DNA from: Thiotrichales bacterium
GTDB taxonomy: Bacteria; Pseudomonadota; Gammaproteobacteria; Beggiatoales; Beggiatoaceae
Length of the DNA: 64,000 bases
Direction: 5' to 3'
Assembly (NCBI GenBank): GCA_016745035.1
Contig: JADGDE010000001.1
Location: 1,297,677 to 1,361,676 of the forward strand
Below the pieces are notes generated by a model. The model was given only the letters and a program-made list of their open reading frames with translations, did not search any database and had not been told where the DNA came from. The position numbers were made by a program, and so were the translations under genes. Position 1 is the stretch's first letter; each line of letters starts with the position of its first letter. This document shows positions 16,939 through 26,923 of this stretch, in pieces.

Positions 16939-17029
16939 AGGATAAAAAAGCCGTTAATAAAGCTTGGCAGTGTATGAAATTTCGATCAGGGGGTCAATCA
17001 ACAAATTAAGATTGTTACAATATAGATAA

Positions 17030-17098
17030 CTGATGTGACGCACAGACTACTTTTTTATCTCAAAAGGAGGAAAAAACTGCCATTGCTTCACAGCTAAA
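17030..17098 (+). repeat. MITE-like repeat R1, copy E (partial)
   Basis: It starts CTGATGTGACGCACAGACTA and runs into the optional hairpin module, ending CTGCCATTGCTTCACAGCTA. The far terminus is missing. Confidence 0.6.
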
Positions 17099-17165
17099 CT
17101 TGAGTGTTTTGGCGGATAATGATGCTAAGAATAGGAAGATTTAAGTGGAATTAAAAAAGGGGGTA

Positions 17166-17236
17166 AGGCTGAGGTCGGAATCGAACCGGCGTAAACGGCT
17201 TTGCAGGCCGCTGCATGACCACTCTGCCACTCAGCC
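17166..17236 (-). tRNA. tRNA-Cys (GCA)
   Basis: The minus strand reads GGCTGAGTGGCAGAGTGG at the 5' end, with anticodon loop CTGCAAA (anticodon GCA), T-arm GGTTCGATTCC and acceptor stem GGCTGAG/CTCAGCC. The discriminator base is U, as in tRNA-Cys. Its 71 nt match the usual length. CCA is not encoded. Confidence 0.97.
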
Positions 17237-17319
17237 ACAATCATGTGCAAGGGATTTGGGAGTTCTAGTTAAAAACTAGACGTTTGTCATCAAAAAAAAC
17301 GATAACAGAAAGGATTTGG

Positions 17320-17392
17320 AGCGGGAAACGAGATTCGAACTCGCGACCCCAACCTTGGCAAGGTTGTGCTCTACCAGCTGAGCTATTCCCGC
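17320..17392 (-). tRNA. tRNA-Gly (GCC)
   Basis: The minus strand reads GCGGGAATAGCTCAGCTGG, with anticodon stem-loop CAACCTTGCCAAGGTTG (anticodon GCC), T-arm GAGTTCGAATCTC and acceptor stem GCGGGAA/TTCCCGC; the discriminator is U. CCA is not encoded. It lies 83 bp upstream of tRNA-Cys in the same direction, the usual glyW-cysT order. Confidence 0.97.
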
Positions 17393-17419
17393 GTTGTCAT
17401 TGGCTAACCAATTCCGTGC

Positions 17420-17447
17420 ATTATACAGACAAATATTGTCATGTCAA
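17420..17447 (-). promoter_or_regulatory. sigma-70 promoter of the tRNA-Gly/tRNA-Cys unit
   Basis: On the minus strand TTGACA (17447-17442) and TATAAT (17425-17420) are both perfect and 16 bp apart. The -10 box is 28 bp from the tRNA-Gly 5' end. It is the strongest promoter seen in the window. Confidence 0.85.
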
Positions 17448-17562
17448 CTTTTTTTAAAAATTTTTTAACTCTCATCATGCCTATGTGATAGCGAGATTCA
17501 ATCCTAAAGCTATACGGATTGAATCTCACTGCCTGACCCGAAAGCCGTATCTCAGTTATTTA

Positions 17563-17642
17563 CTGATGTTACGGACTAAGCTGGTTTTTATCACAATAGT
17601 GTGATTTTCCACCTGCCTAGTGAAGCCTTTGCGTAACATCAG
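17563..17642 (-). repeat. MITE-like repeat R1, copy F (short form)
   Basis: An 80-bp copy from CTGATGTTACGGACTAAGC to GCCTTTGCGTAACATCAG, with TTA on the left and TTA on the right, as for a 3-bp target duplication. The right-hand TTA supplies the stop codon of the TPR gene (17645-17643). Confidence 0.9.
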
Positions 17643-18185
17643 TTATTTAGCTGTTTCTGTCTCATTCGCAGGCGCAGCACTTTCAGGTGCTGGTGCTGCT
17701 GTCGTGCCATGCGCCCCCTGGGCTTCGTGAGCTGCCTGAGTGGCTTTATTAGCTTCGTCTAGCATTTTACGTTTTTTAGCGATGTATTCAGCCATTTTTT
17801 TCGCTTGTTCCATTTCAGGGTCAAGACTTAAAGCTTGAACAACCATGCCATTGGCTTTGGCATAAGATTGTTGATGCAAATACACTAAAGATAGAGATAT
17901 AAATAGCTTAGGGTTTTTCGGATCGTTGACAATCGCATTTTGATAAGCATCGATGGATTCATTTAATTTTTGTTGTGTCAAAAGTAAAGCGCCTAAGCGT
18001 TCATGGGCTAGTGCGGACTCGGGATACGCTTTAGTCGCAGCAGTAAAAACAGTAGCGGCTTCATCAAGTTTGCCATCAACCCATAGTTTATTGCCTTTGC
18101 TAATGTCTTGATTGACATCGGCAAAACTCAGCGTTGAATAACAGACACCTGCCAATAAAAGGGCTGTGGAAATAATTTTCATCAA
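17643..18185 (-). CDS. periplasmic TPR-repeat protein
   Basis: A 180-residue exported protein with a signal peptide (MMKIISTALLLAGVCYSTLS, cleavage after SFA). Three TPR units follow: NKLWVDGKLDEAATVFTAAT, then ALAHERLGALLLTQQKLNES, then PKLFISLSLVYLHQQSYAKA. The tail is rich in Ala, Glu and Pro (TTAAPAPESAAPANETETAK) and looks disordered. TPRs bind proteins; the partner is unknown. The stop codon coincides with the edge of repeat R1 copy F, so the repeat may have replaced the original 3' end. Upstream is the R1 copy behind bioA. Confidence 0.8.
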   Translation of the reverse strand: MMKIISTALLLAGVCYSTLSFADVNQDISKGNKLWVDGKLDEAATVFTAATKAYPESALAHERLGALLLTQQKLNESIDAYQNAIVNDPKNPKLFISLSLVYLHQQSYAKANGMVVQALSLDPEMEQAKKMAEYIAKKRKMLDEANKATQAAHEAQGAHGTTAAPAPESAAPANETETAK

Positions 18186-18263
18186 GGTCTCTCCTCAGAA
18201 ATGCAATTGATAGAAGCACCAGCTTACCTCAGCTAAATATATTTTTCCTTGATTTATGTCTAA

Positions 18264-18367
18264 CGGATGTTACGCAAAGGCTTCTTTTTTGCCCCAAAAG
18301 GCAAAAAAACCGCTATTGCTCCACGGCTACATTACAAGGCAGGTGGACGCTTAGTGTCTAACATCCG
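18264..18367 (+). repeat. MITE-like repeat R1, copy G
   Basis: A 104-bp copy with altered but mutually matching termini, CGGATGTTACGCAAAGGCT and GTGTCTAACATCCG. The same A-to-C change at both ends keeps them complementary. It holds the optional hairpin module (TTTTTTGCCCC / AAAAGGCAAAAAAACCGC). It ends 3 bp from the bioA stop codon. Confidence 0.85.
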
Positions 18368-18370
18368 TAG

Positions 18371-19681
18371 CTAATTTTGGTAGGCGGCAATGTCTTCAAG
18401 CAATTGGCTTATGGCCTCAAGCAATTGCTTTAATTCGGCAGGAGAGATGCTATAAGCAGGCATTAAATAAAGTAATTTCCCAAACGGGCGTAACCAAATG
18501 CCTAGTTTTATCAAAGCCGGTTGAATTTTTTCTAAATCAACTGGTTGATGGAGCTCAATCACCCCGATTGCGCCCAAAACCCGCGCATTAGCAACGCTGC
18601 TAAGTTGTGCCAATGGCAATAAATAGCGTTTGAGTTGGCGCTCTATTTCGACAACGCGCTGTTGCCAAGGACTATGTAATAACAGTTCAATACTTTTGTT
18701 TGCTACCGCGCAAGCGAGGGGATTGCCCATAAAGGTCGGGCCATGCATCAACACAGGATGGATGCCCTCGGCAATGCCATCACTGACTTTCTCATTGCAT
18801 AAAGTGGCGGCAAAACTTAAATAGCCCCCGGTGATGGCTTTACCTATGCAGAGAATATCTGGGCTGATGCCAGCATGTTCGCAGGCAAATAAACGTCCAG
18901 TGCGTCCAAACCCGGTGGCGATTTCATCAGCGATTAATAAAATGCCGTATTCATCGCAACGCGCCCGCACTTGACGCAAGTATTCGGGGGCATAAAAGCG
19001 CATTCCCCCTGCCCCTTGGACGATGGGTTCTAAAATAATGGCGGCTATATCATCGTGCTGCTGGAGTTGTTTATCAAGGCTATCTAAATCCTGCGCTTGC
19101 CAATGGGCATCATCAGGGCTTTGTGGTGCATCGGCAAAATATTGCGCTATAAGGTTTTGCCCCCATAAGTGGTGCATTCCATTAATAGGGTCGCACACAG
19201 ACATCGCCATGAAAGTATCGCCGTGATAGCCATTACGTATCGTGAGGAGTTTATTTTTATGCCCTTGTCCTTGGGAATAATGGTATTGCAGAGCCATTTT
19301 TATCGCTACTTCGATTGCAACCGAACCACTATCGGCAAAAAATACTTTTTCCAAACCAACTGGAGTCATTTCAACCAAGGTCTGTGCTAATTGGATCGCA
19401 GGCGGATGGGTAATGCCACCAAACATCACATGCGCCATTTGCTCTAACTGTTGATTCAAGGCGGCATTGAGTTCGGGATGGTTGTAGCCATGAATCACGC
19501 TCCACCACGATGCCATGCCATCAATAAGTTCCGTGCCATCGGCAAGTGTTAGCCGTACCCCCGCAGCTTTTGTCACCAAGAGGTTATCTAAAGGTTTTTT
19601 TAATGAGCTATAGGGGTGTAGAATATACTTATGGTCAATTGCCAATAAAGCTTGTGCGTCTATTGTCTGCTCGTGTGTCAT
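18371..19681 (-). CDS. bioA: adenosylmethionine-8-amino-7-oxononanoate aminotransferase
   Basis: A PLP enzyme of biotin synthesis that converts 7-keto-8-aminopelargonate to 7,8-diaminopelargonate with S-adenosylmethionine as amino donor. All 436 residues are present, as usual for BioA. Motifs: ELIDGMASWWSVIHGYNHPE, HVMFGGITHPPAIQLAQ, FADSGSVAIEVAIKMALQYH, RNGYHGDTFMAMSVCDP, the acidic LLIADEIATGFGRTG, and the PLP lysine in LCIGKAITGGY. WWSVIHG and YHGDT separate BioA from other class III aminotransferases. No other bio genes are nearby, although in many bacteria it is beside bioBFCD. Confidence 0.97.
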   Translation of the reverse strand: MTHEQTIDAQALLAIDHKYILHPYSSLKKPLDNLLVTKAAGVRLTLADGTELIDGMASWWSVIHGYNHPELNAALNQQLEQMAHVMFGGITHPPAIQLAQTLVEMTPVGLEKVFFADSGSVAIEVAIKMALQYHYSQGQGHKNKLLTIRNGYHGDTFMAMSVCDPINGMHHLWGQNLIAQYFADAPQSPDDAHWQAQDLDSLDKQLQQHDDIAAIILEPIVQGAGGMRFYAPEYLRQVRARCDEYGILLIADEIATGFGRTGRLFACEHAGISPDILCIGKAITGGYLSFAATLCNEKVSDGIAEGIHPVLMHGPTFMGNPLACAVANKSIELLLHSPWQQRVVEIERQLKRYLLPLAQLSSVANARVLGAIGVIELHQPVDLEKIQPALIKLGIWLRPFGKLLYLMPAYSISPAELKQLLEAISQLLEDIAAYQN

Positions 19682-19793
19682 TTGTAAGGGTTCTCGAAAG
19701 ACGAAAAATAATAAGGTCCATTGGCTCGACCAACGGGCGGTTATTTAGCCTAAATATGCAACTAAGGAGGGTTGCTGGTGTTTCACTTAGTTA

Positions 19794-19875
19794 CTAATGT
19801 TACGCACTAAGGCAGTTTTTGCCACAACTAGGGGCTTTTCCCCCTGCCTAGTGGTATTTAGTTGCGTAACATCCG
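19794..19875 (-). repeat. MITE-like repeat R1, copy H
   Basis: An 82-bp copy, CTAATGTTACGCACTAAGGC to TTGCGTAACATCCG, flanked by TTA on both sides. The inner palindrome has changed to AAGCCCC/GGGGCTT-type bases, so the centre is free to vary. Confidence 0.85.
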
Positions 19876-19907
19876 TTAATTACTTCAACTTGTGAGGGAT
19901 TATAGCA

Positions 19908-20732
19908 ATGCGTCAAATCATATCTCGTTTTTTTTCTGTCGTTATTTTTCTCAGTCTTAGCCCGACGCTCAGTGCCGATGTCTTGGTACTGGTGCATGGT
20001 TATTTAAGTGATGCCAATACATGGCACCGCAGTGGGGTGATGGCACAACTACAACAAGCCGGTTGGCAAGATGGTGGGATGTTACAAGGCACACCACGAG
20101 GGGCACAAATTCTAGCCCTACAAGGTCAGGCAACTAAAGCTGATAAGATTGTTTATCGCGCCAATTTGCCCACGTTGGCGGCAATTGAGTTGCAAGCCAA
20201 TGTCCTGACCGACTTACTCGTTCGGGTGCGACAACAACATCCTTATGCTAAACTGACCTTAGTTGGACATTCTGCGGGGGGAATTGTTGCCAGAGCTGTT
20301 TTAATTCGTCATCCTGCGCCCAAGGTGAACGCCCTCATTACCTTGTCTGCACCCCATTTAGGAACAAGGGCTGCTGAAGCGGCTTTAGATGCGACGGATA
20401 TTCCGTTTCCTATGTCGACTTTTGTAGACTTCTTTTCAAGTGGCAGTGGTTACGACATTCTACGTGATTCCTTTTATGTGTTAAGGGATCTCGTGCGTGA
20501 AGCACCTGGCAATTATTTATTTTGGCTAAACCGTCAGGCTCATCCTGATATCCCTTATTATGGGGTGATCTCTTATGGTTATGCGGGTTTAGTGCCTGCT
20601 TATAGTCAAGATATGAGCCGCGTACCTGCGCTACACAATAAAGCACATGTGTGGGCAGGGGTAGGTATACACGAGCTTAGCCCACAGGACGGACAAAGCA
20701 TTTTGGCAATTTTGGCTGATATGCGCAAATAG
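19908..20732 (+). CDS. exported alpha/beta-hydrolase (lipase/esterase-like)
   Basis: A 274-residue protein with a signal peptide (ISRFFSVVIFLSLSPTLSA). The oxyanion-side motif VLVLVHGYLSDANTWH follows cleavage directly. The nucleophile elbow GHSAGG is near 121-126, inside LTLVGHSAGGIVARAVLI. A later LITLSAPHLGTRAAE strand, Asp residues at DATD and a C-terminal HVWAGVGIHEL can supply the rest of the triad. The layout resembles PGAP1/triacylglycerol-lipase-like enzymes. It is probably periplasmic or secreted. The substrate is unknown. The RT-like gene starts 155 bp downstream, across a hairpin. Confidence 0.85.
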   Translation: MRQIISRFFSVVIFLSLSPTLSADVLVLVHGYLSDANTWHRSGVMAQLQQAGWQDGGMLQGTPRGAQILALQGQATKADKIVYRANLPTLAAIELQANVLTDLLVRVRQQHPYAKLTLVGHSAGGIVARAVLIRHPAPKVNALITLSAPHLGTRAAEAALDATDIPFPMSTFVDFFSSGSGYDILRDSFYVLRDLVREAPGNYLFWLNRQAHPDIPYYGVISYGYAGLVPAYSQDMSRVPALHNKAHVWAGVGIHELSPQDGQSILAILADMRK

Positions 20733-20747
20733 CTTGCGTCCCGCGCT

Positions 20748-20776
20748 GATACGACTTTGTGTTTCAAAGTCGTATC
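20748..20776 (+). terminator. perfect 12-bp hairpin after the hydrolase gene
   Basis: GATACGACTTTG and CAAAGTCGTATC pair perfectly around a 5-nt loop, 15 bases after the stop codon. GCCTGGTTTTTGCC follows. It may act as a terminator or belong to a dispersed hairpin family. Confidence 0.55.
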
Positions 20777-20887
20777 GCCTGGTTTTTGCCTTTATTTAGC
20801 ATTGCGTCTTATCATACCTTTATCCAATGCTTATGCCGTTCATTGCCACTGTTTGCGTTGCCTTGCGCGTTAATTATTTGAACGCAT

Positions 20888-22123
20888 ATGTTATTACTTG
20901 ACTCAACCCCTAAATTTTCATGGCAAACTTTTCTTAAAACACCGTCAACACAGGCGTTACTTCCTTTGATAAGTTCTGAAACTGAACTGGACGATGCTTA
21001 CCAATGGCTGCTACATCTGGTCGATGTACATCATTTAGATATTCATTGGCGCTTACCCACCGATTGGAAGGATTATCGAACACAATTACAAGCGCATATT
21101 TTTTCACAAGAATATCGTTTTCATACCCCACATGTCATCACCCAGCAACAGAACAGCTTATTATTATGGTCGCTACGCGATACGCTGATTTTACGGGCAA
21201 TGGCGCAGGTATTTTCTAAGAATTTACCCAATCACCCGCAATTATGGGAACATGATCAAAAAGATAGCCGTGGCGCTAACATAGCCCAACAATTATTTGG
21301 CTCTATACAACAATACACCCAAGCTTACCCACAAGCCTATGCCTATGTTGCCCATTTGGAACTCAACCCCAGCAACCGCCAACAAAATCGCGGTTTGTGT
21401 AAACTCATCGGTCAGCATATTAGTTTAGAATCACAATTGCAGCACTTACTTTATAGCTACTTGTCCCAAACCCACGCGCTAAGCCATCGAGATACCTTAT
21501 TTGACCCCCTAGCACCCCTGTTATCGCAATTATTACTCCAGAGTTTAGATGGCTATATGCAGCACAGTCGTTATTTTTATGCTCGTCATTTTGGTGAATG
21601 GTTATTTTTAGCACAAGATAAGGCACACTTAGAAAATGCGATATATCATGCCAATCGCCATTTAAAAAAACAGGGTTTACATTTATATGTTAGTCCACGG
21701 GTGGTTAACCGCTTGAGTTGGGGGGTGAGTTTTTTGGGCTTTAATTTTAATGAAAACCAGTTTGAGCCGGTTACCTTAGCCCATGAAAAACGTGATCAAC
21801 ATCTGCTCATTTGTTATCAGCAACGGGTAGAGGAACATGATATTCAACATTATCTGAGCTGTTGGCAACGTTGGGTCAATGCTGGGCTGGACAATTGTCC
21901 GGGGATGGATGAAAAAACCATCTTCAAAACCCGTCGCCATTCGAAACTTCCTTACCGTTTACAACGTTTTTTGTTATGGTTTGCTTGGGTTCGTATCCCT
22001 TTATTTATTGCTCTCACCTTGGGTAGTGGTATATTTTTAGGTGATTTTTTGATGGAAATGGTGGATGATACACTAGACCTAGCTGAACAATTTGAACATT
22101 TTATGAATCCACGCTATTGGTAA
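20888..22123 (+). CDS. membrane-anchored reverse-transcriptase-like protein with degenerate active site
   Basis: A 411-residue protein whose order of motifs follows bacterial reverse transcriptases of the DGR/group II type. SLRDTLILRAMAQVF (95-109) resembles RT2. YVAHLELNPSNR (153-164) sits where RT3 normally has YxxxDixxFfd, with the Asp replaced by Glu. DPLAPLLSQLLLQSLDGYM (206-224) matches RT4, and YARHFGEWLFLAQDKAH (231-247) matches RT5, where YADD has become HFGE. LKKQGLHLYVSPRV (259-272) matches RT6 and WGVSFLGFNF (278-287) RT7. A thumb-like YLSCWQRWVNAGL follows. Near residues 361-384 there is a membrane segment (LLWFAWVRIPLFIALTLGSG). All three catalytic carboxylates are altered, so polymerase activity is unlikely. 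A beta-barrel gene starts 15 bp downstream. The relationship is my reading of motifs and needs a profile search. Confidence 0.65.
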   Translation: MLLLDSTPKFSWQTFLKTPSTQALLPLISSETELDDAYQWLLHLVDVHHLDIHWRLPTDWKDYRTQLQAHIFSQEYRFHTPHVITQQQNSLLLWSLRDTLILRAMAQVFSKNLPNHPQLWEHDQKDSRGANIAQQLFGSIQQYTQAYPQAYAYVAHLELNPSNRQQNRGLCKLIGQHISLESQLQHLLYSYLSQTHALSHRDTLFDPLAPLLSQLLLQSLDGYMQHSRYFYARHFGEWLFLAQDKAHLENAIYHANRHLKKQGLHLYVSPRVVNRLSWGVSFLGFNFNENQFEPVTLAHEKRDQHLLICYQQRVEEHDIQHYLSCWQRWVNAGLDNCPGMDEKTIFKTRRHSKLPYRLQRFLLWFAWVRIPLFIALTLGSGIFLGDFLMEMVDDTLDLAEQFEHFMNPRYW

Positions 22124-22138
22124 CTCAACGAGTTTCTT

Positions 22139-22861
22139 ATGAGAAAAATATATCATTTTATCTTTGCTGCTACACTTTTATTACAAACAGCTATTAGCTT
22201 TGCTGATGACAATGAATTAAGTATTTTACCCAATGTAGAAATCTCGACCCGTCAATTTGATTATGTCTCCAATGATAATACCGTTGCCGGTGATATTGTC
22301 ACCGCAGGCTTAGGGCTGAGCCTGACTTATCAGCGCTTTTATGCCAATATCCGTTTAGAAAACAGCCTGTCCTCAGACAATGAAAATGCCAGTGGTTTTG
22401 TGGGTAATGACAGTGCGATTAGTTTCAGGCGCAGCGATTTTACCCTCTCCACCGGTTATGCATTGGAAAATACTTTTATTTTGTTTGCAGGCTATAAACA
22501 AGGCAAAACCACCATTGATGCCAGCACAGCCAATGCCAGTAGTAGTATTGAATTAGTCGGTCGTGGCTTTTTTATTGGGGCAGGGGCAGGGGCAAAAATT
22601 CGGGACTGGGGTGTTTTATCTTTCAGTGCCGCTTATGCCGATTTGGATAGTGAATACCAAGATGCTCAAAACCCCAGCCTTAATGGCCATGCCAGTGGGA
22701 CGAGTTTATCTGTGAGCTGGAAAAGCCCGCTGACAAATAACTGGTCCTATCAATTAGCCTTGGTGCGGCATGATTATGCTTATGCAGGTTTTCCCCGCAG
22801 TAATTTACGCATTCAAGAAAACATTCTTTCCTTACGCCTTAGTTTAGCTTACCGTTTTTAA
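22139..22861 (+). CDS. outer-membrane beta-barrel protein
   Basis: A 240-residue protein with a signal peptide (MRKIYHFIFAATLLLQTAIS, cleavage after SFA). The mature part alternates polar and hydrophobic residues in strands of about ten (VTAGLGLSLTYQRFYANIRL, LSTGYALENTFILFAGYKQG, ILSLRLSLAYRF). It ends with Phe, the BAM-complex sorting signal. It resembles small OmpW/OmpA-barrel type proteins of eight to ten strands. It begins 15 bp after the RT-like gene and ends 2 bp before the acetyltransferase, so the three are probably one transcript. No specific family is recognised. Confidence 0.75.
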   Translation: MRKIYHFIFAATLLLQTAISFADDNELSILPNVEISTRQFDYVSNDNTVAGDIVTAGLGLSLTYQRFYANIRLENSLSSDNENASGFVGNDSAISFRRSDFTLSTGYALENTFILFAGYKQGKTTIDASTANASSSIELVGRGFFIGAGAGAKIRDWGVLSFSAAYADLDSEYQDAQNPSLNGHASGTSLSVSWKSPLTNNWSYQLALVRHDYAYAGFPRSNLRIQENILSLRLSLAYRF

Positions 22862-22863
22862 TC

Positions 22864-23349
22864 ATGAATACAAATGCTCCTTTACAAAAAATTGCCGACG
22901 ATGTTGTGTTAGGTAATGATGTCAAAATATTTGATTTTGTTAACCTCTATGGTTGTAAAATCGACGATAACACCAAGGTCGGTACCTTTGTCGAAATTCA
23001 AAAAGGCAGTTACATTGGTAAAAATTGCAAAATTTCCAGCCATAGCTTTATTTGTGAAGGCGTGCATATTGATGACAATGTTTTTATTGGTCACAGTGTC
23101 ACGTTCATCAATGATCTTTTTCCGCGAGCAACTGCTGATGATGGCAGTTTACAAACCGAGGCTGATTGGCAGTGTGTGCCTACACACATAGAAAAAGGTG
23201 CATCCATCGGTTCTGGCTCTACGCTATTAGGCGGCATTCGGGTCGGTGAAAAAGCTATTGTCGGCGCAGGCTCGGTGGTGACCAAAGATGTGCCAGCGCA
23301 TAGTGTGGTTGCCGGAAATCCTGCACGCGTATTGCGCACCTTAGCATAA
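22864..23349 (+). CDS. hexapeptide-repeat sugar N-acetyltransferase (WlbB/WbpD/FdtC-like)
   Basis: A 161-residue left-handed beta-helix acetyltransferase. The hexapeptide pattern is clear (VLGNDVKIFDFVNLYGCKID, IGKNCKISSHSFICEGVHID, GASIGSGSTLLGGIRVGEKA, VGAGSVVTKDVPAHSVVAGN). The family end NPARVLRTL is present. Such enzymes acetylate the amino group of nucleotide-activated amino sugars. The next gene is a DegT-type sugar aminotransferase, which is the partner expected for making a 3-acetamido-3-deoxy or 2,3-diacetamido sugar for surface glycans. The exact sugar is not fixed by sequence. Confidence 0.88.
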   Translation: MNTNAPLQKIADDVVLGNDVKIFDFVNLYGCKIDDNTKVGTFVEIQKGSYIGKNCKISSHSFICEGVHIDDNVFIGHSVTFINDLFPRATADDGSLQTEADWQCVPTHIEKGASIGSGSTLLGGIRVGEKAIVGAGSVVTKDVPAHSVVAGNPARVLRTLA

Positions 23350-23470
23350 AACTAATAGCAGCTTCACGCTCATGAATCTAGTACAATGCCTCACAGCCTG
23401 GTTCTAATGCTGGGTTTTTTTGATGATAGTTTTTACGATTAACAGCCCCACACATACTGAAGTTATAACT

Positions 23471-24574
23471 ATGCAAGTACCTTTTTTAGATCTCAAGGCT
23501 CAATATGCTCAAATTAAAGATCAAGTGCAGCCTGCCTTGATCGATGTCATGGAAAATACCGCCTTTGCTGGTGGCTCTTTTGTGGCTGAATTTGAGAAAA
23601 ATTTTGCTGATTACTGTCAGTGCAAACACGCTATTGGTGTCGGCAGTGGTACAGAAGCCTTATGGGTGGCTTTGGTGGCAATGGGTGTTAAACCTGGTGA
23701 TGAGGTGATTACCGCTGCTAACACCTTTATTGCTACCGCCGAGGCGATCAGCTTCGCTGGTGCAACCCCCGTGTTTGTTGATGTTGAAGAACATAGCTAT
23801 AACTTAGACCCAGTACAAGTGGAAGCGGCTATCACCGACAAAACCAAGGTGATTATTCCCGTGCATCTTTATGGGCAAATTGCCTCTATGGATCCTGTGT
23901 TAGCGATTGCGAAAAAACACGGTTTACGGGTGCTAGAAGATGCGAGCCAATCTCATGGCGCAACCTCCAGCGAGCGCCGTGCAGGCTCTATCGCCGATGC
24001 CGGTTGTTTTAGTTTTTATCCGGGAAAAAATTTAGGCGCTTATGGCGAAGCGGGGGCGATTACTACCAATGATGACGAACTCGCTGCAACCATGCGCCGT
24101 TTTCGCGATCATGGGCAGGCGAAAAAATATTACCACGATATGGTCGGCTGGAATGCCCGCATGGATGGCTTCCAAGGGGCTGTTTTAGATATTAAACTCA
24201 ACTATTTACCTGAATGGACAAAAGCCCGCCAAGCCCATGCTGCACAATATAATCAACTGCTGGCTGAACATGCAGGCATTCAAATTCCCAGCGTCAGCGC
24301 TGGCAATGAGCATGTCTATCACATTTATGCCATTCGGACACAAAACCGCGATCAAGTGATGCAGGCTTTAGCCGAAAAAGGCGTGGCTTCGGGAATTCAT
24401 TACCCGATCCCTTTACATTTACAAACGGCTTATGCAGATTTAGGCTATAAACAAGGGCAATTCCCGGTTGCTGAGCGCTGTGCCGCTGAACAAATTTCTT
24501 TGCCAATGTATGCCGAACTGACGGAGGCACAAATTGCTTATGTGGCTGAGCAATTAAAATATATTGTAGCTTAA
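23471..24574 (+). CDS. DegT/DnrJ/EryC1-family sugar aminotransferase
   Basis: A PLP-dependent aminotransferase acting on nucleotide-linked keto sugars. The start is taken at 23471 (MQVPFLDLKAQYAQIKDQV), the usual opening; the frame is open from 23420. The 367 residues show AIGVGSGTEALWVALVAMGV, DEVITAANTFIATAEAISFA, LEDASQSHGA and the PLP lysine in SFYPGKNLGAYGEAGA (about 183-198). The C-terminus has HVYHIYAIRTQNRDQ and the GIHYPIPLHLQTAY motif. It pairs with the acetyltransferase just upstream, like WlbC-WlbB or FdtB-FdtC. Confidence 0.93.
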   Translation: MQVPFLDLKAQYAQIKDQVQPALIDVMENTAFAGGSFVAEFEKNFADYCQCKHAIGVGSGTEALWVALVAMGVKPGDEVITAANTFIATAEAISFAGATPVFVDVEEHSYNLDPVQVEAAITDKTKVIIPVHLYGQIASMDPVLAIAKKHGLRVLEDASQSHGATSSERRAGSIADAGCFSFYPGKNLGAYGEAGAITTNDDELAATMRRFRDHGQAKKYYHDMVGWNARMDGFQGAVLDIKLNYLPEWTKARQAHAAQYNQLLAEHAGIQIPSVSAGNEHVYHIYAIRTQNRDQVMQALAEKGVASGIHYPIPLHLQTAYADLGYKQGQFPVAERCAAEQISLPMYAELTEAQIAYVAEQLKYIVA

Positions 24575-24646
24575 AATAAAATTGGGCAATAACCGCACGG
24601 TTGTTGCCTATCTGTCTTTCGTTTTCATCATTAACTGTCAAAACGC

Positions 24647-26923
24647 TTGTTACATTCAACGACACTCAATAAACAAACACTATTCATCGCTTGGCTCTGG
24701 ATGAGTCTGGTGTTTGCTTGTTTGTTGATTCCTGCTTTCTATGCCTATCAAAATAAGCAAGTTGATGACTTACAAACAAAAATGGTCGAAGTGGCAGCGA
24801 TGATAAGTCAACAAGTGACCATGGCTTTGCAATTAAAAGACAAAGAAGAAGCCATGCGCTTAATGCAGGGCTTGCGGCATATTGAATTGATACATTATGC
24901 CGAGTTACGCGATGACAAAGGCTATTTATTTGCCGTGTTTCAAGATCCGCAAAATCCCTTGATTCGTCCACGTTATTTAGAAATGACCCAAAAAGCCCAT
25001 TTTTGGATCCAACGCCAACAATTAAACCTTAATTACCCCATTGGTTACGAGTCAAAACAGCATGGGCAATTGTATATTCAAATTCGTTTAGATGGTATTT
25101 ATAGCCATAGCCAAGAATTTATCTATTTCGCCGTTGCTATCAGTGTGCTATTACAACTTATCTTCTTACCTTTATGGGGGGCTATTTTTCGTTGGCAACT
25201 CCATCCCATCCAGCGCTTATTAGCCTTGTTTGAACAAATAAAACAAACGGGCGATTCGCATTTGCGCCCCACGGGTAAAACGCACAATTATGAATTACAA
25301 ACACTACAGCAAGCGGTTCATAATCTATTAAATAATTACGATGTCTTACAAGACAAATTGGATTATGCCGAAACACAAACCTCGGCTGCCAATATCGCTA
25401 AATCACAATTTTTACTCACCATTAGCAATGAAATCCGCAGTCCTATGAATGGGGTTTTGGGGATTACCGAAGTCTTATTAGATACAAAGCTTGACTCGCA
25501 ACAACAAGAATTAGGACAAATTATTCATGACTCCGGGACACGCTTATTAAGCATTCTTAATGATATTTCTGAATATAGTAAGCTTGAAGCCGGACAACTG
25601 AGTTTGTATATCAGCCAATTTAATTTAAGCAATTTATTAAAAAACTTAGTCGACGAGTTTGCCCCACAAGCACAACAAAAAAATATTCACTTTCATGTGC
25701 TAATGCGAGACGAATTGCCCAGTTTAGTACGTGGTGATGAGTCACGTTTGCAACGTATTTTGCACAATCATCTCGCTAATGCGATTAAATTTACCCATAA
25801 AGGTGAAGTCAATTTTCAAATTTATATCAGTCATGAAACCGACGAATTCTTAGAACTGGGCTTTAGTATTCGTGATACAGGCGTAGGCATTGATAAAAAA
25901 ACTTTGGCACATTTATTTGAGGTTTTTCCCGAAGCATCGAGCACAGAGCGCAAATATGGTGGAACAGGCTTACCTTTGGTGATTAATAAAAAACTCTGCC
26001 AAATGATGGGGGGCGATATTCATTGCCATAGCATCAGCGGTGAGGGCACGACTTTCCAAATCAGTGTTAAATTGGAAAAGGTCGATTCAGACACCTCCCA
26101 ACCACATAGCGGGCAATCCTTGCAGGGTTTAAATATTTTATTATTACTCCCCATTGCTGAAACACAAGTATTACAACATTATTTGAAAAAATGGTCAGTC
26201 AATGTTGAAGTGTTAAGTAAAAAAGAGGGGATAGAAAAACGCCTTAAAGTAGTGATTGCTCAACAAAAACATCATATTTGTATTTACAATGCCAACATGG
26301 TTTCTCAATTAAGCCAAACCTTACAAGATATTATTACCCAAGATGCATTAACGCCTGTCTTCTCTTTTATTCAATTACAATACCAAACAAAAAATAATAG
26401 CCAAGAGACGCAATCTTTGAGCTATCCTCTATTTCCCAACCAACTCTACCGTAGTGTAAAACGCCTTTATTTGAAAAATAGAGAAGAAACACTATGGTAT
26501 AGCCTGACCCAGTCTAAACATTTACAGTCTAAACAAGCCTATCGCGACCACCATGTCTTATTGGTAGAGTCCAACCCGATTAACCAACAAGTGGCGAAAC
26601 TGTATTTGAATAAACTCTCTTGTTCTGTCGATGTGGTCGAAAGCGGTGCAGATGCCCTCGCCTGTTTAAATGAAGAGCACCCTTATGATTTGTTGCTAAT
26701 TAATTGCAAACTGGTAAAAGATGATGAAGGCTTAAGTACCACCCGTAAAATTCGCCGGAAAGAAAAACAACACAACCCTGAAGAACCCTTGCCAATTATC
26801 GCCTTAATCGCACATGCCAACAGCCAAGAGCAACAACGCTGTTTAGATGCGGGGGCAAATGATTGGCTCAATAAACCGTTTAATAAAACTCAGCTACAAC
26901 AGATTTTGGATAAATGGTTATGA
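24647..26923 (+). CDS. hybrid sensor kinase homologue lacking both phospho-acceptor residues
   Basis: A 758-residue inner-membrane protein: first helix (about 11-33), a periplasmic domain to about 155, second helix (156-180), HAMP-like linker, HisKA, HATPase and a C-terminal receiver. The H-box reads ISNEIRSPMNG, with Asn261 (AAT at 25427) in place of the phospho-accepting His. The ATPase domain keeps the N-box (NHLANAIKFTH) and G1 (RDTGVGID), but G2 is GGTGLPL. In the receiver the Asp site reads LLLINCKL (Asn686), the acidic pair LVEDN is LVESN, and the Thr is Ile (IIALIAHA); the Lys (LNKPF) stays. It should therefore be unable to autophosphorylate or receive phosphate in the usual way. The start is uncertain: TTG at 24647 or ATG at 24701. 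Its end overlaps the murL-like gene by ATGA. Confidence 0.85.
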   Translation: MLHSTTLNKQTLFIAWLWMSLVFACLLIPAFYAYQNKQVDDLQTKMVEVAAMISQQVTMALQLKDKEEAMRLMQGLRHIELIHYAELRDDKGYLFAVFQDPQNPLIRPRYLEMTQKAHFWIQRQQLNLNYPIGYESKQHGQLYIQIRLDGIYSHSQEFIYFAVAISVLLQLIFLPLWGAIFRWQLHPIQRLLALFEQIKQTGDSHLRPTGKTHNYELQTLQQAVHNLLNNYDVLQDKLDYAETQTSAANIAKSQFLLTISNEIRSPMNGVLGITEVLLDTKLDSQQQELGQIIHDSGTRLLSILNDISEYSKLEAGQLSLYISQFNLSNLLKNLVDEFAPQAQQKNIHFHVLMRDELPSLVRGDESRLQRILHNHLANAIKFTHKGEVNFQIYISHETDEFLELGFSIRDTGVGIDKKTLAHLFEVFPEASSTERKYGGTGLPLVINKKLCQMMGGDIHCHSISGEGTTFQISVKLEKVDSDTSQPHSGQSLQGLNILLLLPIAETQVLQHYLKKWSVNVEVLSKKEGIEKRLKVVIAQQKHHICIYNANMVSQLSQTLQDIITQDALTPVFSFIQLQYQTKNNSQETQSLSYPLFPNQLYRSVKRLYLKNREETLWYSLTQSKHLQSKQAYRDHHVLLVESNPINQQVAKLYLNKLSCSVDVVESGADALACLNEEHPYDLLLINCKLVKDDEGLSTTRKIRRKEKQHNPEEPLPIIALIAHANSQEQQRCLDAGANDWLNKPFNKTQLQQILDKWL

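Follow-up and report, generated by a model that had tools for sequence, protein, structure and literature searches.

We identify a gene descended from a UG4-group reverse transcriptase (RT) in which the polymerase site has been erased, with every catalytic aspartate lost. It occupies positions 20888-22123 of the forward strand of the window, by which we mean the whole 64,000-nucleotide stretch of Thiotrichales bacterium DNA that was analysed. This pseudo-RT, a UG4 derivative of 411 residues, is intact, stands alone, and is catalytically dead; it carries a predicted C-terminal membrane anchor, and the erased site together with the anchor indicates that the product is probably a membrane-bound binding protein and not an enzyme. 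In the literature that we found, no job is known for the UG4 group. On balance we favor the interpretation that a UG4 RT was co-opted here as a membrane-tethered, non-catalytic protein-binding scaffold, of which the topology, the current selection, and the protein binding are the parts that we infer.

Descent from a UG4 reverse transcriptase and loss of the polymerase site

The assignment to UG4 rests on the PADLOC RT_UG4 profile, which matches residues 31-335 (20978-21892, covering RT-like fingers, palm, and thumb) at E=5e-31, with a generic RT model second at 6e-11. Weaker matches include the NCBIfam group II RT model (6e-4) and, in the PDB, Cas6-RT-Cas1 (1e-3) and G2L4 RT (0.03). An earlier, sequence-only reading of this DNA had called the protein RT-derived and proposed a search against RVT_1; Pfam returned no match and RVT_1 was not reached, but the UG4 profile bears out the kinship itself. 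In PHROGs the best match reached E 0.013, to a family whose function is unknown, and was not accepted as real. The structure prediction and fold search proposed in the same reading point the same way: an AlphaFold2 model built from an alignment of 43 sequences (mean pLDDT 78.6) matches G2L4 RT with E=3e-11 in Foldseek and Z=24.2 in VIA, where group II, DGR, DRT, and retron RTs and Prp8 (Z 13) rank lower. By this model the pseudo-RT has an RT fold, a claim that leans on homologues because folding of the single sequence gave an unusable model (pLDDT 39.5). The protein is nevertheless highly diverged. Its mean identity to other UG4 RTs is 21%, against 32-44% for their own means, and its terminal branch is about eleven-fold longer than the median (4.92 versus 0.44), a length that blurs placement within or outside UG4.

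Near-invariant residues are lost proportionally more often at the active site than elsewhere. The RT3 aspartate, present in all 42 other aligned UG4 sequences, is Glu158 (codon 158, 21359-21361), and the R(F/Y)MDDW of UG4 reads RHFGEW at residues 233-238, so that HFGE (codons 234-237, 21587-21598) replaces (F/Y)MDD. An active RT is recognized by the RT3 Asp and the xxDD carboxylates; here these are Glu158 and HFGE. Also changed are the motif-D lysine (to Pro), the motif-B serine (to Ala), and two RT3 tyrosines (to Ser and Asn). In RTs, it is at those active-site positions that the metals are bound and the incoming nucleotide is held. The alignment has 42 near-invariant columns (conserved at 90% or more), and the pseudo-RT departs from 26 of them, comprising 10 of the 11 active-site columns, which were picked by motif and not by distance in the structure, and 16 of the 31 elsewhere. 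Retention is accordingly 1/11 at the active site versus 15/31 in the remainder (Fisher p 0.03).

The sequence-only reading was correct on the sequence of the gene itself, namely its motif changes including the RT3 replacement, its membrane segment, and its unbroken reading frame, except that it took YADD to be the ancestor of HFGE, where the motif of the family is xMDD. It also looked to conservation of HFGE in homologues. Among 32 readable homologues, fetched with the pseudo-RT as query and without a catalytic pattern, and including some from other RT groups, 31 keep DD and the exception (L011) has DE; YMDD is also kept in three fimbria-linked plasmid UG4 RTs. Homologues thus keep YxDD, the outcome which that reading had set against itself, and the gene is a lone degenerate copy, although mere decay is disfavored for the reasons given below.

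Decay, retained catalysis, or a binding role

Could the gene simply be decaying, an RT lost so recently that its frame has merely not yet been broken? We regard this as unlikely. There is reason to consider it: the branch is very long, the genome's other UG4 copy has a broken frame close to the N-terminus, and many UG4 ORFs elsewhere are fragmentary. In addition, scans of genome and viral contig collections with pseudo-RT peptides recovered no orthologue, searches at family, order, class, and phylum level returned distant RTs only, and a plasmid search gave no match. Yet the frame has stayed unbroken and free of stops while 10 of 11 active-site positions were lost, and about half of the remaining near-invariant residues are kept. 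When real UG4 genes were mutated at random until they were as distant from the others as the pseudo-RT is, they acquired 8-26 stops and never none (90 runs); this simulation begins from extant UG4 genes, and late death of a fast-evolving functional RT stays compatible with it. Codon adaptation of the pseudo-RT (0.677) falls within the range of 26 neighbors (0.63-0.74), whereas composition-weighted synonymous codons give 0.52 ± 0.02. Host-like codon usage and zero stops, against at least 8 simulated, make simple decay unlikely and uphold the earlier view that this intact gene is not a simple pseudogene; taken with the long branch, they suggest that the protein was selected through most of its divergence and the catalytic site was not. 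Because the pseudo-RT is an orphan found in one genome only, selection today is something we infer. That the protein instead still polymerizes, by way of an atypical site, is very improbable. Its two remaining carboxylates do stand at catalytic columns, as Glu158 and Glu237, but the first Asp of xMDD has become Gly, and the motif-B serine, the motif-D lysine, and both RT3 tyrosines are gone.

Another reading is a non-catalytic RT whose role at the membrane is still to bind nucleic acid, comparable to the Prp8 RT-like domain or to degenerate organellar maturases. Such a role would fit the kept RT fold and the presence of Prp8 among the structural matches, and organellar intron proteins without YADD are documented (PMC4424553). 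The charge of the protein makes this reading improbable. The RT part holds 25 Lys+Arg, compared with 31-69 in 42 active UG4 RTs, and its net charge is -4 against a UG4 mean of +11.8 (pI 6.7 versus 9.2), with Lys or Arg missing at about 10 of 17 mostly basic columns. This loss is not simply a matter of host composition, since the FMDD-bearing UG4 copy in the same genome has a net charge of +11 and a pI of 9.1. With its positive charge lost, binding of nucleic acid by the RT part is doubtful, and the partner would more likely be protein than RNA or DNA; the charge shift is compatible with protein binding and is no proof of it. Of the non-polymerase role put forward by the sequence-only reading, nucleic-acid or protein binding at the membrane, the first option is therefore made less likely by the missing basic residues and the second favored. 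In addition, His (7.9%) and Gln (10.8%) are unusually abundant in the RT-like part relative to active UG4 RTs, and the His content of that part exceeds that of all 26 neighboring proteins (maximum 4.5%).

The membrane segment and the gene neighborhood

A membrane helix at about residues 361-384 (21968-22039) is plausible from the model and from hydropathy, with Kyte-Doolittle windows of 1.85 (361-379) and 1.84 (370-388), in support of the segment proposed earlier at this place. The predicted helix is preceded by a basic segment, KTRRHSKLPYRLQR, and followed by an acidic tail, which under the positive-inside rule would place the RT part in the cytoplasm.

The anchor is probably, though not certainly, of UPF0114 origin. 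Residues 341-395 (21908-22072) resemble the N-terminal helix of UPF0114 (PF03350); within them, residues 341-392 align with the start of a UPF0114 protein (L200) from another genome of the same class at 32% identity, a match picked from a 369-genome search. The C-terminal segment and the UPF0114 protein align with a local score of 94 (shuffle maximum 51), and the host's own UPF0114, fetched independently of that match, comes out first of the other 424 membrane ORFs. In hhalign the expected register is recovered with P 4e-4, against 0.03-0.25 for shuffles; Pfam PF03350 has no match in the C-terminal 77 residues. Some 50 C-terminal residues thus resemble the first membrane helix of UPF0114, whereas the remainder of that domain is absent and the likeness lies below Pfam detection. 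We also considered homology of the anchor to the KLP...FLAL segments of fused UG4 RTs and rejected it, as the local scores against the two tested (23 for L003 and 25 for L010) equal those of shuffles (means about 22). The anchor appears to differ in origin from those of the UG4 fusions.

In the reading that we favor, a UG4 RT lost its polymerase site and retained part of the RT scaffold, and the beginning of a UPF0114 (YqhA-like) gene is the probable source of the membrane helix at its 3' end. Most likely this yields an inner-membrane protein with one helix and an RT-like body in the cytoplasm, acting as a non-catalytic binding scaffold.

Upstream, a terminator-like hairpin (20747-20777, forward strand, a consensus match only) lies 3' of a hydrolase gene and sets the pseudo-RT gene apart from it. 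A weak promoter-like site follows at 20786-20815 (forward strand), in a sequence where such sites are no more numerous than in shuffles. Downstream on the same strand, and probably on the same transcript, are genes for an outer-membrane beta-barrel-like protein (22139-22861), 15 nucleotides from the end of the pseudo-RT ORF, and for a hexapeptide acyltransferase (22864-23349), 2 nucleotides further on. An Rfam scan of positions 17000-25000 found two tRNAs and no other known structured RNA, and a structured RNA partner of the pseudo-RT gene was set aside on this basis.

The shared transcript with the barrel gene, suggested by the sequence-only reading, remains probable from the short gap, but the adjacency is not conserved. 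The barrel protein has matches in 33 of 43 genomes of the family, and at 19 other barrel loci examined, each in another genome, no adjacent RT is detectable and other genes precede the barrel. A conserved RT/beta-barrel pair is thereby disfavored and, as no orthologue of the pseudo-RT turned up in the collections searched, the idea that dead membrane RTs with a barrel partner form a conserved class is not sustained. Since the barrel is family-wide and has other genes 5' of it elsewhere, the barrel gene was most likely already in place in this lineage when the pseudo-RT came to lie beside it; the two products may be functionally linked. The barrel protein has no Pfam match, and the protein encoded before it often ends in TPSF or APSF.

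UG4 relatives and comparison with known systems

UG4 RTs co-occur with fimbrial domains in 66% of cases (PMC8934634), and in three plasmids we find them either within fimbrial operons or at their ends. In these three unrelated plasmids the UG4 RT lies directly 3' of chaperone-usher fimbrial genes (L254 5971-6957, L255 6157-6987, and L256 6160-7080). Across 81 UG4 loci, no recurring non-RT neighbor stood out. The second UG4 copy of the host genome (L014, C11:1204248-1205042, reverse strand) has an intact FMDD and a frame shifted near its N-terminus, and its 3' end is partly repeated downstream.

Beggiatoaceae, the same family, also contain UG4 fusions (L030, L031, L040, L041, L044, L047, and L099) in which the RT is followed by an in-frame hydrophobic or signal-like segment. 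Unlike the pseudo-RT, these keep xMDD and run on into exported domains. Among those compared (L044 459-1973, L047 5887-7437, and L099 350-1837; L040 201-1718 and L041 5839-7422), the RT part shares about 85-98% DNA identity, dropping to about 35-50% right at the RT end, where a signal-like segment is followed by an exported domain that diverges fast and carries a membrane helix at its C-terminus; between L040 and L041, identity returns to 57-91% further on. This pattern could have arisen through cassette exchange, homogenization of the RTs, or directed diversification. A Thiotrichaceae UG4 fusion (L011 697-3258 and L032 5959-9699) has FMDE for FMDD and LPRPLGEGRGEG-type repeats in its RT region.

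The pseudo-RT adds to this association of UG4 with the cell surface, which in plasmids takes the form of fimbrial neighbors and in Beggiatoaceae that of in-frame exported-domain fusions. A broader and more tentative proposal is that it is a bacterial, non-organellar pseudo-RT domesticated as a membrane-tethered protein scaffold serving the cell envelope, in a lineage that has repeatedly joined UG4 RTs to membrane or exported segments. With other UG4 RTs (PADLOC RT_UG4) it shares a full-length profile match, the RT fold and, loosely, the surface-gene theme; it differs in that it has lost its active site and basic charge and has gained a C-terminal membrane helix. Parallels are the Prp8 RT-like domain and degenerate organellar maturases, in which the RT fold was likewise kept after polymerase residues were lost (PMC4424553 for maturases). 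Those proteins work with intron RNA, whereas near the pseudo-RT gene two tRNAs are the only known structured RNAs, and its RT part is not basic. If our interpretation is correct, RT scaffolds in bacteria can be turned to protein-related work, much as that of Prp8 serves RNA work in eukaryotes.
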